From NCBI GenBank assembly GCA_030272155.1, contig CP126198.1:3162001-3226000 (forward strand): a stretch of DNA of 64,000 nucleotides, given 5' to 3'. Position numbers and translations under genes: made by a program. The notes beneath the pieces were generated by a model that was not told where the DNA came from, searched no databases, and saw only the letters and a program-made list of their open reading frames with translations. This stretch comes from Tetradesmus obliquus (taxonomy: Eukaryota; Chlorophyta; Chlorophyceae; Sphaeropleales; Scenedesmaceae). Of this stretch, positions 37,158 to 47,715 are shown piece by piece. Position 1 is the stretch's first letter. Every line of letters begins with the position of its first letter.

Positions 37158-40100
37158 TCAACCGCCAAACTTATTGCCAACCGCCGGCTGCGTGCTTGGG
37201 GCCCCGAGGATGTCTCCAATCTGGCTCTGGTCAAACCCTGCCTGCGACAAAACCCCGGACGCATCCATCCCAGCGCCACCCAAACCCAAGCTGGCGCCAT
37301 ACGGGTCATCCGCACCGGCCCCAAACCCAAAGCTGGCCTGGCTTAAACCCTGCGTGTCAGGGAAGCCACTGAGCCCTAAACCCGGCAGGTTAACGCTTAC
37401 GCCCGCCGCAGCAGCGCCATTTGCAACTGCGCCGCTGCTGCCGCCAGCCTGCGACATAGCCCCAGCCTGACTCATCAGGCCTGGCTGGGTGTTGAGCAGA
37501 CCTGACAGGCCTGTCCCCAGCACGCCATCTCCATATCCGCCCAGCCCACCAACCCCAAAGGAGCTCTGGCTGCTGCCAGGGGCCCCCAGGCCAAAGTCTG
37601 GCTGCGTGTTGAGCCCCAGCTGGCTGCTGCTGCTGCTGCTTTGCGGGCGGCCGCTGATGCTGCTGCTCAGCCTGCCAGGCCTGCTACTGTCAAAGCCGCC
37701 AGCAGCAGGGATGGCGTACGACGGCCCAGCAAAGGGTGAGTACCCAGGGCCGTCCATCGCCCTGAATCCTCCTGCTGCTGCTGCTGCCGGTCCTGCTGGC
37801 ATCATCCCTGACAGCCCGTTCATGGCTGCTGCTGCTGCAGAGCCTGCGCCAGCTCCGGCAGCAGCAGCTGCTGCTGCTGCTGCGAGCGAGCCAGGAATAG
37901 GGTCCCCCACTCGCTCCGGGGGATGGTAGCGCCCGATTGCTCCCATGCCGCCTGCGCCGACGCCTCCCACGCCGAATGCTGCGCGGTCAAACTTGCGCTT
38001 GGGCTGACTCAGCGCGATCATGGAGGGCTTCAGGTTGGTCAACGGCCCCTCCACCAGCAGCTCCTGCGGGAGTCAAACATTGGTCAGACACCGGTCAAAC
38101 GGCGGTCAAACAAAGCGCCGCACAGCAGGACGGATGGCAATGGTGACATGGGGGCTGTACTTGCTGTCTGCGGCCTTGCTGGGTGCACAAGGTGAGAAAG
38201 AGTAGGGAGACAGCAGGCGCAGGCAGCGCTCATGCGCGCTGCTGGGTAAAAAGACAAGCAGCGCCACCGCACGCATAGCCAAAGCCAAACAAACAACCAC
38301 ACACAAAGCCACCCAGCAACTCACGTGCTCCTTGAAGTGGCTCAGCAGCGCGTTCCACAGCGGCTGCCGGCTGAGCACGCGCGGGTTGCCCAGCAAAATG
38401 AGCCCGTAGCGCGCGCGAGTCAGCGCCACGTTCATGCGGCGCGGGTCTGCCAGGAAGCCGATGCCGCTCTGCTCGTTGCTGCGTACACAGGACACGATAA
38501 TGTAGTCCTTCTCGCGGCCCTGCAGCACGCAGCACAAAAAGCAGGATGTGAAAACAGCCAATCACGCATGAAGCAAGAAAAAATTGGGTGTATGCTGCAG
38601 GGGCGCGAGAAGGACTACGTCATCGTGCCCTGCGTGCGCAGCACCGCGCATGTCCCTGGAACATGCGCGTTGCTGCGCACGCAGGGCACGATGACGTAGT
38701 CCTTCTCGCGCCCCTGCAGCACACAGCATAACAGCCAAGTGTGAGGCAACAGCCAGTCAGGTATGAACCAACAATGATTCAGGTCTAAAACACGCGCGCT
38801 GCTGCTACACAATGACCCAGTCCCTTTCAGGGCCCTGTCACCCACCTGGAACGCGTCGACGCTGGACACCTCCACAGCCTTGTACAGATCTTGCCACAGG
38901 CATGCACACTAGAGGTTTGGCCCTAGGGTTTCGCCATGCAAGCAAGCCTCAACAAAACCTGCCACCCACCTGGAACGCGTCGACGCTGGACACCTCGACA
39001 GCCTTGTACAGATCTTGCCGCAGCGGCCCATGCCGCAGCAGCGTGGCCACGATGTTGGCGCGCTGCCCTTCGTACGGCGTGATGACGCCCAGCTGCGCGG
39101 GCAGCACGCCGGCTTGCAGGAAGCGCGTGAGCAGCTTCTCCACGTTGGCTGCCTCGGTGCGGTTGAGGTAAGAGGTGCCTGCAGGCGGATACAGAGGCAT
39201 GTGCAGGCAGCGGATGCAGCGTAAGCTTGCAGGAAGCGCGTGAGCAGCTTCTCCACCTTCGCTGCCTCGGTGCGTTTGAGACAGGAGGTGCCTGCAGCAC
39301 ACGTGCACACGGTGTTACAACAGAGGCGAGGCGTCAGTGTGCATCGTGTGCTTGTCGGGCTTGTGCCAAGGGAGTGCCGGCACTGTGAGCCTATGTACTA
39401 CAGGTGCCACAACTTTGAAAACTGGCATTTGATTGCGATCGAGAAACTGCTCTCACCGCTGGCGCTGATCGCCTCTGCCCCCAGCTGCACCCAGAACATC
39501 ATTGGGTCGTCAGGATTGGGCCAGGGTTGTATCACCATCATAAGATTGCACACCAATGAGATTTCACACTATAACACCGGCAAGCCTGCCCTTACCGCTT
39601 GCGCTGATCTCCTCTGCGCCCAGCTGCACCCAGAACATCATCGGCTTGTCAGGCTTGGGCCAGGGGAAGGCCGGCGCGCCGCCGCGCCTGTCGCCAGCGC
39701 CAGCTCCGTTCTGCAGCGTGCCCTCGTAGAAGGTGTTGCTGGGAAACTCTGAGAGGCAGGGGTGCATGCGGTACTGCACCTGTTGGCGGCAGCAGATTGG
39801 CGACATAAAGAGGTTGAACAGGGACACAGTTGTTACATGCAAGCTAAGGCGCAAGCCACTACTGCTACTTGTGGAGGAAGCCGTGATCCAGGCCAGCACT
39901 GCCCCATCAACAGCCAGCGTGTTCAGCAGCAGCAGCCTCACCTGCAGCCGAATCGGCTTCACCCCTAGCAGCCGCAGGCGCTCGAAGAGGCTCTGGCACA
40001 GCCCCGCCTCGGCCGCGCGCTTGCACATGATGACAGGCGGCAGCTGGCAGTGGTCGCCCACCAGGATGACCTGCAGGCGGCAGCAGCAGCAGTGTTTGTC

Positions 40101-43100
40101 AGTAATATAAGAAATATCTGCAACATTCTTAATGCCTGGAAGTACTTGAGCAATCATATGCAGCGCAAGGAGCCACGGAAGGCCTGGGCATAACCCGTGG
40201 TAGGGTTTACAACATCAGGTTTGGATGAGACCCTGAGCGCAACAGGGCTCTGTACAGGGCAGCACAGTTCAAAATCAGATTGCGTGATGATGCAACCAAA
40301 AATGCACCCAGTTCTAGTCAATCGCCTTAACCACTCGGCCATCACCGCCCCCAGAGGGTGATGCAATGGTAGAACACTTTTTCAATCGCGGTGAACAGGA
40401 TTTGAACCTGTGCGGGAACTCCCAATTGATCTCAAGCAGGTGCTGCTGATGCTGACCATCAACAGCAGGCCACCCCTTCTCTCTGTGGAAGCAAATTTTC
40501 AAAAACCGCCAGGCGATTTTCGTGGCCGGGCCGTGCCAGGCGATTTTCAGCCTAATTGACCGATAGCCCTCTTCACTCAAAACACAGTCTACTTGGCGCC
40601 ACACGGCTGCCAGCTGCGCAATGGACCGCAGGGCTGCCAGCCGCCGCCCACTCCAATGGCCAGCCGCGGCAGCCGCCGGCCACCAACAGGACCAATGAAA
40701 GTTCACATTGCTCAGAATTCAGCCACAAACCGCGCCTCGCCTGCTTAGCACCAGCGGGATCAGTGCCTCCGGCTCACTGGCCTGCGTGCACTCGTCCGCA
40801 CATACACGGGTAGTGGGTGTGGAGCCCAGGGGCGCCGCCCCTGGCCACACACCCCCTCTTAGCCTTAACTTACCCAGGAGCTGCAGAGCTGCCTGGGTAG
40901 TCACTCACTCACTCACACAAACCATGCAGCACGCCACCAAAGTGACATGGACAGAATATGCCTGCAGCTGCACACGCCACGCAGAGGGTCACACATGTAA
41001 GGAAACAAACAACGAGCAACAATGAAAGCCACTTGCCGCACCTGCTTTGCGCCCAGCACCAGCGGGATCAGTGCCTCCGGCTCGCTGGCCTGCGTGCACT
41101 CGTCCACCAGCACGTGCTGGAAGCGCAGCGCAGCCAGCCGCGCGTCACCAGCACCCACACACGTGGCACACACCTGCGCAGGGGCGCAGGAGCACAGCGC
41201 AACACAGGGTGACGGCTGAGAAGTGGACGGCGAGCGGCAGCATCAGCGGCAGCAGCAGCAGCAAAGCCGCCCGATGGCACTTGCACACAACACTTGCAGG
41301 ACATGAAGTTGCTTCCTGTTGCGCCATATCACACAGGGCTGTCTGCAGGGCCCCAGCCACGAGCGCCGTCACGCGAGATCCACAGGTGCGCAGATGCTGC
41401 TGCGTGTAGCCTCCAACTCAACAATCACCAACATGCCTGCGTGTGTCATTCACAACAGCAGAGATAAGCATTGTTGTGGCCCCTCACCACGTCGGCGTGC
41501 GCCAGCACCTCGCCTCCAGGCTGCGCCAGTGCAGTTGCATCATCACACGCGCATATGGCATTTCTTACGAATTCAATGTCAAACCAAAAAATCTCTAACC
41601 AACCCGTCGCTCACCACGTCGGCGTGCGCAAGCACCTCGGCTTCCAGGCTGCGCCGCAGCTGCGCAAAGTGTCGCTCGTCCTGGCTGGTCAGCCCGCCTT
41701 TCTCCGACTTGAGCTGCCGCAGCTTGCGGAACAGCTCGCTGCCAGGCAGGTTGAGGTGCGCGACCTGCGGTGTTCAGTGTTAGAAGTAGATGCACCAGGG
41801 GCGGCAATAAACATAGCTGTCAGGCAGATTTAGGTGCTGGACCTGCAGGTATGCCGGGTGCAGCAGGGGTAGAACGCATTGCAGCCAGAGGGGGGAATAT
41901 CCGTCACAGCTGTCAAAGGCTGGGATTGACAGCACCGGTCTGACAGGCAGCTACTGCGCGGCTTTACACACAGGCAGCTGCTGGTCCCACCTGGTGGTGC
42001 AGTGTGAGGTGCTCCACTGGGCTGGCCACCGCCTCCCTGCCCTGATCACTCACCCAACCAAACCACCAACCACAGCGGTACACACTTGTCAAACACAACC
42101 CAGCCCCCACCCAGCCACGCACCTAGTGGTGCAGTGTGAGGTGCTCCACTGGGCTGGCCACCGCCTCCCTGCCCCATCATCCATCCAATCCCTCACCCTT
42201 AAACTAGTCACATGCCAGCAACACCTGGATTGATACCCCAGCCCCCAGCCACGCACCTGGTGATGCAGGGTGAGGTGCTCCACTGGGCTGGCCACCGCCT
42301 CCCTGCTCTTGGCGCACAGCCGCACCACCTTGAGCCCGGTGGCCGCAACCTTCTCAGCCAGCTGGTCCACGCCCACGTTGCTGGGCGCACACACCAGCAC
42401 CTGCAGGCAAAGAGATTAGTTGTAAGCAAGCATTCAGTACAGTATTCTGGGCGAGCTAGTCCACGCCTACGTTGCTGGGAGCAGCACCTGAGGCAGTGGT
42501 GTAAATACAAACAAGCAGGCACATGCACAAGCAAGCAGGTGATCCAGCTGGTCCAAGCCCACGTTGGGGCCACACACCAGCACCTGCAGCCACAGACGAC
42601 AAACCCACCTGGCTGCCCCCCGTGGTGCACAGGAGGTACAAGATAGTGGCGCTCGTGACTGTCTTGCCCGTGCCTGCTTATGTCAAGTGCTGTAGAGCGG
42701 TAACATCAGGCCCACAATGGGTTGTGCACGGTGTGAACACATAGCGGACAAACCCACCTGGCTGCCTGCCGTGGTGCACAGGTGGTACACGATGGTGGCG
42801 CTGGTTACTGTCTTGCCCGTGCCTGGCGGGCCCTGGATGAGGCTCAGCGGCTGCTGCAGCACGCTGCGCACTGCGTGCAGCTGGCTGTGGTTGAGCTCTG
42901 GCAGGTTGGGCGCAGAGAAGCTGGCCTTGGGCAGCGGGATGCGCAGCGTGATGGGTTCCACCTGCGGATGGCGTGACATGTTGTGTTTGTCGTTGGTTGT
43001 TACATGTGCATCTTGGGCGTGTTCGGCTGCTCAATGCAACAAGTTAGGGATGCGCAGCGGGATGAGCTCCACCTGCGCAACACGGCAGATATGACAAGGG

Positions 43101-46100
43101 GTTTGGGAGATCAGAGTAATAGTGAACGAGCAGTGCAGCTGGCTGTGGTTCAGCTCTGGCAGGTGTGGGGCAGGGAAGCTGGCCTTAGGCAGCGGGATGC
43201 GCAGCGTGATGGGCTCCACCTGCGGATGGCGTGACATGTTGTGTTTGTTGTTGGTTGTTACAAGCACATGTTGGGCGCGTTCAGGTGCTCCATGCAACAA
43301 GTAAAGGGTGCGCAGCGGGATGAGCTCCACCTGCGCAACACGGCAGATATGGAAAAGGGTTGAATGGAGAAAGGTGTTCTTGTAACAGTGCAGCTGGCTG
43401 TGGTTGAGCTCTGGCAGGTTTGGGGCAGAAAAGCTGGCCTTAGGCAGCGTGATGGGCTCCACCTGCAAACGACAACAATGCATGTCAATCAAGGTGACGT
43501 GTTCTTTTTACGATTATTGTCATTTAATTTGTTTCAATTGACAAGGAAAATCTCTTCTCAAAGAACACACCTTTGCATTTGTTCTCTAGCATTTTACTGG
43601 ATTGATCAGTTGGAAATTTACATACAGATCAATATCTGGCAGCTGCACGCCAGTTGAGTGCATCTTGTGTACCGGCATTACCGAAAAATGCCAGATATTG
43701 ATCTGTATGTAAACTCAACTGGCATGCAGCTGCCACTTGCAGAATGCTGGACGCAGGACGCAGGGCAACAGACACTGCTACACACCTCGTGGCCCAGCAG
43801 GATGTGGAAGAGGTAGCCGGAGACGCATGCATCATCACCTCACCAGCATGCACAAGGCCACCAAACAGTCACAAGCTGCTCATGCACACCTCAGACATCG
43901 CACCTCGTGGCCCAGCAGGATGTGGAAGAGGTATCCTGAGATGCTGGCGCTGTAGTCCTTGAACAGCTTGAGCGCGCCGCTCATGCGCTCAAAGCTGGTG
44001 GCCTTCCAAACAAACTCCAGGCTGAAGCCCACGCTGGTGTCCTCAGGCACCTCAGGCTTGGCCATCTCCAGGCACACCTGCACACGCAGTGCGCAATGTT
44101 GGGTTTAGCATTGTTTCAACTGACAAGGGCAGTTCAAAGGGACAAAGCCCACGCTAGTATTCTCAGGCACCTCAGGCTTGACCATCTCCAGGCACACCTA
44201 TGCAAAAGAGTGTTGGGAGCATGTTTGCAGGGCAACAAACAGCACGGTTGGTAGTTGCAGGGCAGTGTCTGCAGGCTGAAGCCCACGCTGGTGTCCTCGG
44301 GCACCTCCAGCTTGGCCATCTCCAGGCACACCTGTTTAAGTTGAATGTTGAAGGAACACAGTACTGTGGCATATGCAAGAGTCGGAAAACACAGGCCAAA
44401 GCCCAGCATTCAATCATGCTGCATGCTCCCGCTATCCAGCGGCTACCTTTGGCAGCACGCTCCACCTGACAAAACACAGGACGCACAACGCATGCAACAT
44501 GTCAGGCATAGCAGCTTGCAAGCAGCTGCAAGAACACGCAGCAGCAGCAGCAAGGTATGCCTTCCCCGCCACACCTCCTCGCTGCTGCCGCCTGTGATGA
44601 TGACGTGGCCGGTGCCCATCAAGCTGCATGTGCACACTGTGAGCAGGCAACTCCCAACAGCTGCAATAGCACAAGGCACCCCGCAGTACACATGACGCAA
44701 CACTGCAGAAACATCGTAACACACACACATCACTTTGCAGGCAGAACACGCCGCCGCCGCAGCAGCAGCACAGTCTGCTCTCCTGCCTCACCTCCTCGCT
44801 GCTGCCGCCAGTGATGATGACGTGGCCGGTGCCCTCCCAGGCCGGCCGCCCTGAGGGGCAGCGGTGCTTCAGCCGCAGCTCATCACCCATCATCAGCTTG
44901 ACCTCCACGTCGTCCTGCAGATTACAAAACAGCGGGTTGTGGTCGTATGATTGTACCCTTCAAACACGTAGGCATGCAACAAGGTGCTGTATGGAGGCTT
45001 GAAGAGCGGGCGCCAGCATGTTACACACGGCTGCGTCGGCTGTGGCGCACCTGGGCTGAAGTGCCGCGTAAAAACACAATCGCTTATAGATACATCCATG
45101 TCAGAACGTGAGGAACTCCTTGCATGTTGTGCCAGCAATGCCATGCGCTTGCCGGGCCCCAAGGGCAGCCACAACACTGTCCGGCTCCATGGCAGCACAA
45201 ATGTTCAAGTAAGCAGACACCATTCATAATCCCCAGGTTGCCACATGAACTTTGCATATTGCCTGCAACCTCCTTTAAATATGAAAGGTTTCAAGATCAG
45301 GCCGCACCTGTGGGGTGAAGAAGCAGGCCAGCTTCTTCTTGTTGAGCCCCACGTCCCAGCGCACGGTGATGTTCTCGCGCCGCTGCGCCTCCTTGCTGGC
45401 CTTGTCGTAGTCAGCCTCAAGCTTCACCAGCGGCCGGAACACCGCCTGCATTGCAGTGTTTGAACAATGCAAGAAGAGTTTGAACACTGGTTGGTTGACG
45501 GGATACAGCTGCTGGCCTTGTTGTAGTCCGCCTCCAGTTTCACCAGCGGCCGGAACACCGCCTGCAAGTGAGTGATTGAACAGTGTAAGATAAGTTTGAA
45601 TTTGACATTCCAGCCGAAATACAGCAGCTGGCGGTGTCGTACTCCGCCTCCAGCAGCAGCAGCGGCCGCAACACCACGGCGCGATTTAAAATAAAGCTGG
45701 TCTGACATCAATCGTGCGCAGCAGAAGCACGCCCAGCGCTGCACCGTGCCCAACAGCAAGTGTAGCCACACCCGCCCACCTGGTACTGCGCGGCGTCCTC
45801 GTAGCGCAGCACTGCGGGCGTGAGCTGGTTCTCAGGCTCCTCAGGCCCGCCCTCAAGGTCCTCCAGCCGCGCTTCAGGAGCAGCCTTCCACAGCTCCTCC
45901 AGCGCAGTCACCTGCATTGCCAGTACATTGCCAGTACATTGCAGCAGCAGCAGCAGCAGCAGCAGCACCACAGCCAAATAATCAGTGGTCAGGTGTGCAC
46001 ACGGGGCAGCCTTCCGCAGCTCCTCCAGCGCAGTCACCTGCATTGCCAATATATTGCAGCAGCGGCAGCAGCGGCAGCAGCAGCAGCAGCAACGGAGCCA

Positions 46101-47715
46101 ATAGTTCAGTGGTCAGGTGTGTATCATGAGCAGCTATCCACAGCTCCTCCAGCGCAGACATTTGTGTTGCATTGCAAAACAATGCCTACAGGGTGAGTGT
46201 GATCGGCCAACCCCACCAGGAGTGCATTATACCTGATTCACACGAGCGTGATGCTGAACCTGATGCAACATGGCGTTCCGCACGGGGTCTCAGCGCACAC
46301 ATAAAGCAACAGCGCATTGGCTAACCGCCTCACCATCGTGAACCCTTGGCAAGGCCTGCTCAGGCTCCCCCGGGTACATATGATTCAAGCAGAATGCATC
46401 ACAGCTGTGTTATTTTATTACTTGGAGTACGAATGCCTCGGGCGCCAGCCGCACCTGCTGCGGCGTGAGCCTCCTGGAGCGCAGGCGCTCCTCCTCGCTC
46501 GGCACTTTGACCATCCACGCCACAAACTGGCGGTCCTCGATGATGGGCTGCCACTGCAGGTGTGATGCACATGAAAGAGCAGGAAAGACATCCACGCAGC
46601 ACACAGAATGAAGCACAGTGAATGAAGCACTGTGCATGTGCTGCAGCGCTGCCAGCAGCTATGCCGCACAGTTGCAGTGATGCAGCTGTTGCTACTGCTG
46701 CAGGCTAACTGAGCTCCCACCGCCAACAGCGGCGCTGCAGCAGTATACACCGCGCACAACAGCCAGGGCCGCAAGTCACCCCTCGGCGCCGCGCCTGAGC
46801 AGCCACTGCCACTGCTGCTGTTGCAGGATGTGTGCACGATGCCTGATGCTAGCAGATCTGTTGCAGGTGGTTCAGCCTTGTCAATGATCCTGAGGAAACG
46901 TCGTTTGCCAACCGTTACTGAGCCCGAAGCTGCTGCATCTGCTGCAGCAATTGGCTGCATCTGCTGCCGCAGCGGGCCTGTTGCACACGGCTGGCTGCAT
47001 CGGCTGCGGCGCTGTTGCACATCGCTGGCTGTATCTGCTGTGCCGAGATAGAGCTGTCACCGACAGCTGGTTGAGTATGCGGCGCCGGCAGGCTGTTGCA
47101 AGTGGCTGCATCTGCTGCTGCGCCGCACCTGGCTCATGTCCACGCCCAAGTCCCTGGTGGACGGGTGGTTGGGTGGAGTGTCGCGCGCCAGCAGCACCAC
47201 CGTGTTGTCGCCAGCCTGCAGCCATGCACAGCAGCGCAGCGCCGCTTGAACTACATACCCGCCTGTACAGCATTGATTGCGAGACAGAGGCCGCAGCCTG
47301 CAGCTGCTGTCAACAGCGGCAACGCCTGCTGAATGCCATCAGCAGCGCTGCTGCTGCTGCCACTACTGCGCATCGCCCACTTGGTGACAATGCCCTTGCC
47401 ACTGCTGCTGTCAACATGCAGGCACCCGCAGCAATAGCATCTGATACTGCCCTGCTGGCCGCCGCCACTGCTGCTGGGGCAACTGTTGCACATAATAACA
47501 CCATAGCTTCAGCACTGCGGTGCAGCCAAGGCTGTCTGTGACCCTAAAGCTTTGCTGCTGCTGCTCCTGTTGTTGCTGTTGCAGCTGTGGCAATGGCATC
47601 TGCTGCTGCTGCTGCCAGTGTCACTCTGCATGAGCTTACCACCAGCACAAAGCCCAGGCTGAGCACGTTCTGCCTACTGCCCTGCTGCCGCTGCAGCTGT
47701 GCTGAAGGACAGCTC

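Follow-up and report, generated by a model that had tools for sequence, protein, structure and literature searches.

Organisation of the locus

The window analysed here is a stretch of 64,000 nucleotides from the genome of Tetradesmus obliquus (Chlorophyceae, Sphaeropleales), an assembly of 104.66 Mb in 17 contigs. On its minus strand, at 40430-40312, lies a circularly permuted tRNA-Ser(AGA) gene, here called P1, in which the 3' half of the tRNA is followed by a 38-nt spacer and then by the 5' half. The minus-strand gene that surrounds it was identified as UPF1: once its exon pieces were spliced together, the resulting peptide matched solved UPF1 structures with an E-value of 1.6e-60. The features of the locus, all of them on the minus strand, are as follows.

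40071..41041, minus strand: UPF1 intron holding P1; 971 nt, GT-AG, phase 0, between ...LVLGAKQ and VILVGDHCQ...
40446-40431, minus strand: leader; GCACC at 40439-40443 pairs with the trailer, and the G at position -3 (40433) can pair with C32 (40317)
40430-40387, minus strand: 3' half, 44 nt including G73; A38, 3' strand of the anticodon stem, long variable arm, T arm and 3' strand of the acceptor stem, assigned by ARAGORN on the joined halves
40398..40408, minus strand: B box GGTTCAAATCC, upstream of the A box in the permuted order
40386-40349, minus strand: spacer, 38 nt, linking the 3' end of the acceptor to its 5' end; tRNase Z and RNase P are predicted to cut it out
40348-40312, minus strand: 5' half, 37 nt; 5' strand of the acceptor stem, D arm, 5' strand of the anticodon stem, anticodon AGA at 40315-40313 and A37
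40331..40341, minus strand: A box TGGCCGAGTGG
40311-40298, minus strand: trailer; GGTGC at 40308-40304 pairs with the leader, and the T5 run at 40302-40298 is a likely RNA polymerase III (Pol III) terminator

The break in P1 falls between positions 37 and 38, the type II arrangement. When its halves are joined 5' to 3', ARAGORN recognises a class II tRNA-Ser(aga) (the program was run in circular mode, in which many spurious variants are also printed), and all 23 of the 23 stem pairs are standard. The initial annotation had proposed a permuted tRNA-Ser(AGA) gene at this place, and both its coordinates and its letters proved to be exact. Its opinion that the gene is not an old pseudogene is likewise borne out by the letters of P1.

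No tRNA was found in the window by ARAGORN when introns were disallowed, or by Rfam at the gathering score. With long introns allowed, ARAGORN returned a tRNA-Ala(GGC) that takes in part of the P1 3' half and has an intron of 194 nt; this candidate was taken as spurious. In an ordinary intron-containing tRNA gene the 5' half precedes the 3' half, and this is not the order at P1. A covariance model built from 18 class I tRNAs of the same genome, permuted in silico, scored P1 at 38.7 bits (a rough E-value of 2.9e-9 in 93 kb) and had no other match in the window up to an E-value of 10. Because the same model also responds to tandem ordinary tRNA genes elsewhere, with scores of up to 53.5 bits, its score is by itself no proof of a permuted gene. 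Chance can nevertheless be ruled out for P1, since the covariance match is accompanied by recurrence of the permuted arrangement at three other places in the genome.

Four permuted genes and their divergence

A DNA search with P1 revealed four copies of the permuted gene on three contigs: P1 itself in the window (contig C8), P2 on contig C10 and P3 and P4 on contig C2. The initial annotation had missed that P1 is one of four copies, and that one of the others is damaged. All four have the 3' half, a short spacer at the acceptor end and the 5' half in this order and on one strand, with spacers of 38, 56, 61 and 61 nt in P1 to P4, base 73 being counted in the tRNA (39, 57, 62 and 62 nt if it is left in the spacer). 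The possibility that chimeric or circularised reads have produced an assembly artefact is negligible, given four loci on three contigs with differing flanks and three distinct spacers.

The swapped halves give a complete canonical tRNA in three of the four copies (P1, P3 and P4). In P2 (C10:767506-767673) there is a G-G mismatch in the D stem, and position 73 is an A where P1, P3, P4 and the Ser(CGA), Ser(GCT) and Ser(TGA) genes all have G. The earlier statement that no mutation breaks a stem, made for P1, therefore extends to P3 and P4 and fails for P2, which on these two differences may be decaying into a pseudogene. Among the copies the sole other stem difference is a T-stem pair that is A-U in P1 and P2 and G-C in P3 and P4; as covariation in three distinct rows it is weak, being reached by 160 of 500 shuffles.

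The halves and the spacers have fared very differently. The halves of P1, P2 and P3 are 95-100% identical in pairwise comparison, whereas their spacers show an identity of 0.41-0.47 against a shuffle mean of 0.42-0.47, with the observed identity attained by 25, 114 and 87 of 200 shuffles in the three comparisons. Intact halves with spacers at the level of shuffled sequence are what is expected if selection has acted on the tRNA but not on the spacer. In the 300-nt flanks, the comparisons of P1 with P3 and of P2 with P3 stay within the shuffle range. The flanks of P1 and P2 have an identity of 0.55 against 0.51 for mononucleotide shuffles, none of 60 of which reach it on either side. This may reflect flanks that were once common to both, or a similar base composition, and P1 and P2 may accordingly be younger copies than their spacers suggest.

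P3 and P4 share the same spacer and do not differ at any position of a 176-nt stretch that reaches from 19 nt ahead of the 3' half to the end of the T run. Upstream of this their promoter-like element (see below) is kept, while the linker between and the outside flanks have diverged. The identity thus spans about the predicted transcript only, as gene conversion or RNA-mediated copying of a transcript would leave it. Relatives beyond this genome were sought with exact patterns of the 5' half in the viral_contigs and genome_contigs collections, and there was no match.

Search for an ordinary tRNA-Ser(AGA) gene

The initial annotation had called for a count of conventional tRNA-Ser(AGA) genes. 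None was found by three whole-genome searches, which used an A-box pattern, the joined tRNA and an anticodon-arm pattern. The serine A-box pattern with at most two mismatches occurs at 11 places, comprising the four permuted genes, one Ser(CGA) gene, five Ser(GCT) genes and one place without a tRNA; the reversed pattern, as a control, gave two matches. Among the best-scored candidates, the joined 80-nt tRNA used as a DNA query had nine matches, of which eight are the halves and the ninth is Ser(CGA), at 86%. The anticodon-arm pattern matched five times (the four permuted genes and Ser(CGA)), with one match for its control. An ordinary Ser(AGA) gene with mismatches beyond the limits of these patterns could have been missed. 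An ordinary Ser(TGA) gene is present.

Since no conventional gene was found, tRNA-Ser(AGA) seems to come from the four permuted genes alone. UCC and UCU make up 10 of the 101 serine codons in three open frames, which are unverified as gene models. It is established that no other eukaryotic tRNA reads UCU or UCC, so that the permuted genes should be essential.

Permutation was seen only for Ser(AGA) among the tRNAs examined in this genome, and solely with a break at 37/38. There was no permuted leucine tRNA gene among 16 matches to a leucine A-box pattern, 13 of which are ordinary tRNA-Leu genes and three of which have no tRNA. A search with RF00005 among 1714 candidates, which supplied part of the tRNA set, reported 62 matches of 63 scored.

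Upstream elements and transcription

Some ordinary tRNA genes of T. obliquus have upstream motifs in common, none of which was seen in control stretches. The clearest of these is AAATAACACTTTTGCNTT followed by a TATA-like stretch. With one mismatch allowed the AAATAACACTTTTGCNTT element occurs at 12 places in the whole genome (0 for the reversed control), and all 12 are 47-110 bp upstream of a tRNA gene. The distances in bp from the start of the motif to the gene are listed here.

P3 and P4 (to the 3' half): 64 and 64
Ile-TAT: 86
Arg-CCT: 76
Cys: 110
Tyr: 47
Lys: 97, twice
Leu-TAA: 63
Arg-TCT: 76
Glu: 84
Ser-CGA: 55

That every occurrence of the element precedes a tRNA gene suggests that it is an external promoter for Pol III. 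Of three matches to U6, the two genes that pass the cut-off have, by eye, a different upstream sequence without the tRNA element. Scored with a weight matrix built from the ordinary tRNA genes, P3 and P4 reach 41.6 and 40.7, while the highest of 156 control stretches scores 8.5. The sequences of P3 and P4 are most simply read as having an external Pol III promoter, from which transcription would begin near -19 and end at the T run. No such element was found upstream of P1 or P2, for which 47 and 34 of the 156 controls score as high.

The 5' half is followed by a run of T in every copy (T5, T6, T4 and T4 in P1 to P4), and none of the four spacers contains any run of four Ts.

Two further motifs were noted upstream of tRNA genes. 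One, GGTTCGAA, is present in 10 of 66 upstream stretches and in none of 100 controls, although one of the ten coincides with the B box inside a neighbouring Thr gene; from its sequence and its position at -62 to -97 it looks like an external B box. The other is the telo-box-like CTAAACCC, which marks other tRNA upstream stretches (7 of 66, against 0 of 100 controls). Near P1 there is a weak match to the second upstream motif of tRNA genes:

40490..40511, minus strand: weak match to M2, suggestive only, as 5 of 156 controls equal or exceed it

The restriction of the upstream element to P3 and P4, together with the two defects already present in P2, could mean that P3 and P4 alone supply the tRNA, with P1 and P2 as dispersed, poorly transcribed and decaying copies. 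This would be a special case of a functional permuted family, not exclusive of it, and we regard it as possible but rather unlikely. The tRNA, leader, trailer and T run of P1 are all without defect, and the upstream stretches of 56 of the 70 ordinary tRNA genes likewise do not exceed the control maximum, which only 14 of the 70 do. That P1 itself contributes to the supply is the likelier expectation.

The position of P1 raises the separate question of whether it depends on its host. The initial annotation had placed P1 inside a UPF1 intron on the same strand, which the mapping of the intron at 41041-40071 confirms, and had raised the possibility that the nesting means shared transcription. P1 could then be transcribed by RNA polymerase II within the intron and subsequently processed out, as its orientation, its position entirely within one intron and the failure to find an element for its own transcription would allow. 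Co-orientation on its own is an even chance. The T5 run comes straight after the P1 trailer, P3 and P4 have a promoter element of their own, a run of four to six Ts closes every copy, and no host gene was recognised near P2, P3 or P4 (the scan, a thin test, took in 10 of the 21 ORFs of at least 120 residues in their 3-kb loci, and none of the 10 had a Pfam match). Transcription of P1 by way of UPF1 is therefore highly improbable. The nesting looks incidental, and nothing was found in this analysis that ties P1 to UPF1. In the window as a whole, 6 of the 16 ORFs of at least 250 residues were scanned, and none of the 6 had a Pfam match.

The UPF1 region has some features of its own. The intron that bears P1 contains a partial copy of the UPF1 exon just upstream of it, 51 nt long and 98% identical (40747-40797 against 41055-41105). 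Tandem arrays occupy 42875-43454, 45394-45675 and 45874-46157, and at least two of them appear, from their translations, to repeat pieces of UPF1 exons with periods of 258 and 116 nt. The arrays are possibly a trace of the birth of introns through tandem duplication.

Predicted folding and processing of the precursor

The GCACC of the leader is complementary to the GGTGC of the trailer in all four copies, and around the conserved GCACC the other leader letters differ between P1 and P2 on the one hand and P3 and P4 on the other. In each copy the helix of leader and trailer adjoins the anticodon stem at the junction, the arrangement of a relaxed bulge-helix-bulge motif, and the G at -3, counted from the 3' junction, is available to pair with C32. 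A pair of the C32 type is used by the eukaryotic splicing endonuclease. Pairs between anticodon and intron are among the topics mentioned in a review of these genes (PMC3978253). The free minimum-energy fold of P1 is the permuted cloverleaf with the leader and trailer helix, at a folding energy of the pre-tRNA that is no better than that of shuffles (z -0.25). Unconstrained folds of P2, P3 and P4 favour other structures, by 1.6, 4.8 and 4.8 kcal/mol, respectively.

The genome has a Sen34-like gene on contig C6 and a Sen2-like gene on C2, both assigned from their protein family and from their similarity to solved subunits so named, as well as exons of an RtcB ligase on C3 and a tRNA-Tyr with a 19-nt intron (ARAGORN). 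The presence of these components and of an intron-containing tRNA means that the splicing route probably exists in this alga.

From these features the following pathway can be proposed. Pol III would start some 19 nt ahead of the 3' half, driven in P3 and P4 by the external TATA-containing element that they have in common with ordinary tRNA genes, and would read through the 3' half, the spacer and the 5' half to stop at the T run. Pairing of leader and trailer beside the anticodon stem would create a site of the bulge-helix type at 37/38. Cleavage there by the Sen endonuclease, and joining of A37 to A38 by a tRNA ligase, would give a circular RNA, from which RNase P and tRNase Z would excise the spacer. 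CCA would then be added, and the product would presumably be aminoacylated.

Alternatively, the four loci could be rearranged pseudogenes, unexpressed pieces of tRNA left behind by duplication. P2, with its D-stem mismatch and its wrong discriminator base, has the look of such a remnant, and neither P1 nor P2 has the upstream element. Against this, the halves of P1, P3 and P4 have stayed intact while the distinct spacers diverged to nearly the level of shuffled sequence, the pairing of leader and trailer and the T run are retained in all four copies, and no ordinary gene was found from which decaying pieces could have come. We consider it very unlikely that the family as a whole consists of pseudogenes. 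The explanation that best fits the sequences is that the permuted family is functional, and that in T. obliquus UCU and UCC are read by a tRNA-Ser(IGA) made from these working genes alone; we hold each of these two statements to be very probably correct.

Relationship to other permuted tRNA genes

The Tetradesmus genes belong to the known class of permuted tRNA genes, and to its type II. According to the passages on these genes in the review, 34 permuted tRNA genes were known in 2014, the commonest break in green algae is at 37/38 and serine genes are frequent among them (PMC3978253). Permuted Ser(AGA) genes are recorded there for Micromonas pusilla and for the nucleomorph of Bigelowiella natans. 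The nucleomorph of Amorphochlora, a second chlorarachniophyte, is described as having a permuted trnS(AGA) that is absent in two other chlorarachniophyte nucleomorphs (PMC4494063).

As far as the table entries of the review go, the Micromonas and Bigelowiella genes agree with those of Tetradesmus in isoacceptor, in the type II break at 37/38 and in having one spacer at the acceptor end. They differ in spacer length, the entries giving 64 and 5 nt compared with 38, 56, 61 and 61 nt in Tetradesmus, and in number, with one Ser(AGA) entry per genome compared with four copies in the 105-Mb Tetradesmus genome. In Cyanidioschyzon merolae, as the review portrays it, the halves are likewise in swapped order, with an upstream TATA-like signal and a T run after the 5' half, but the breaks fall at more than one position and permuted genes make up 11 of 43, whereas in Tetradesmus only the 37/38 break and only Ser(AGA) occur among the tRNAs examined (PMC3978253). 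According to the same source, a circular tRNA intermediate has been shown in C. merolae and is known from other algae.

The initial annotation had suggested that P1 might be the first permuted tRNA gene in a chlorophycean-type genome. For the class itself this agrees with the literature examined: no other chlorophycean case is named in the titles and abstracts of the literature searched, which was mostly open-access, and Chlamydomonas reinhardtii, a member of the Chlorophyceae like Tetradesmus, is given in the review as being without permuted tRNA genes (PMC3978253, citing Maruyama 2010). The core chlorophytes, however, already have a case in Auxenochlorella, for which permuted tRNA genes are reported in the parts of two papers that concern them (PMC12633428/PMC12636532); this alga is a core chlorophyte like Tetradesmus but belongs to the class Trebouxiophyceae. 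The Tetradesmus genes are thus apparently the first permuted tRNA genes in the Chlorophyceae.

Whether permuted tRNA genes are ancient or have arisen repeatedly is presented in the review as a matter of debate (PMC3978253). That the same isoacceptor is permuted in distant green lineages makes an old origin a hypothesis that deserves a test, and repeated origin is of equal standing. As a tentative and rather improbable joint reading, the permuted tRNA-Ser(AGA) gene could be an old trait of green algae that predates the split of the Mamiellophyceae, the line of the chlorarachniophyte endosymbiont and the Chlorophyceae and was lost in Chlamydomonas; in Tetradesmus it would have become the obligatory source of tRNA-Ser(IGA), and an external Pol III element, as in ordinary tRNA genes, would have taken the place of its inverted internal promoter. 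Were this joint reading true, the decoding of UCU and UCC in Tetradesmus would depend on a circular RNA.

A chlorophycean case with four copies, and with no ordinary gene found, extends the range of permuted tRNA genes to a genome of 105 Mb. Annotation pipelines that look for ordinary genes only would report T. obliquus as having no tRNA-Ser(AGA). The contrast between P3 and P4, on the one hand, and P1 and P2, on the other, offers a natural test of the upstream-promoter hypothesis. If the permuted genes are the sole source of this tRNA, the cell must probably circularise and re-cut an RNA in order to read common serine codons, and Tetradesmus would be an alga in which the dependence of translation on a circular tRNA precursor can be tested.
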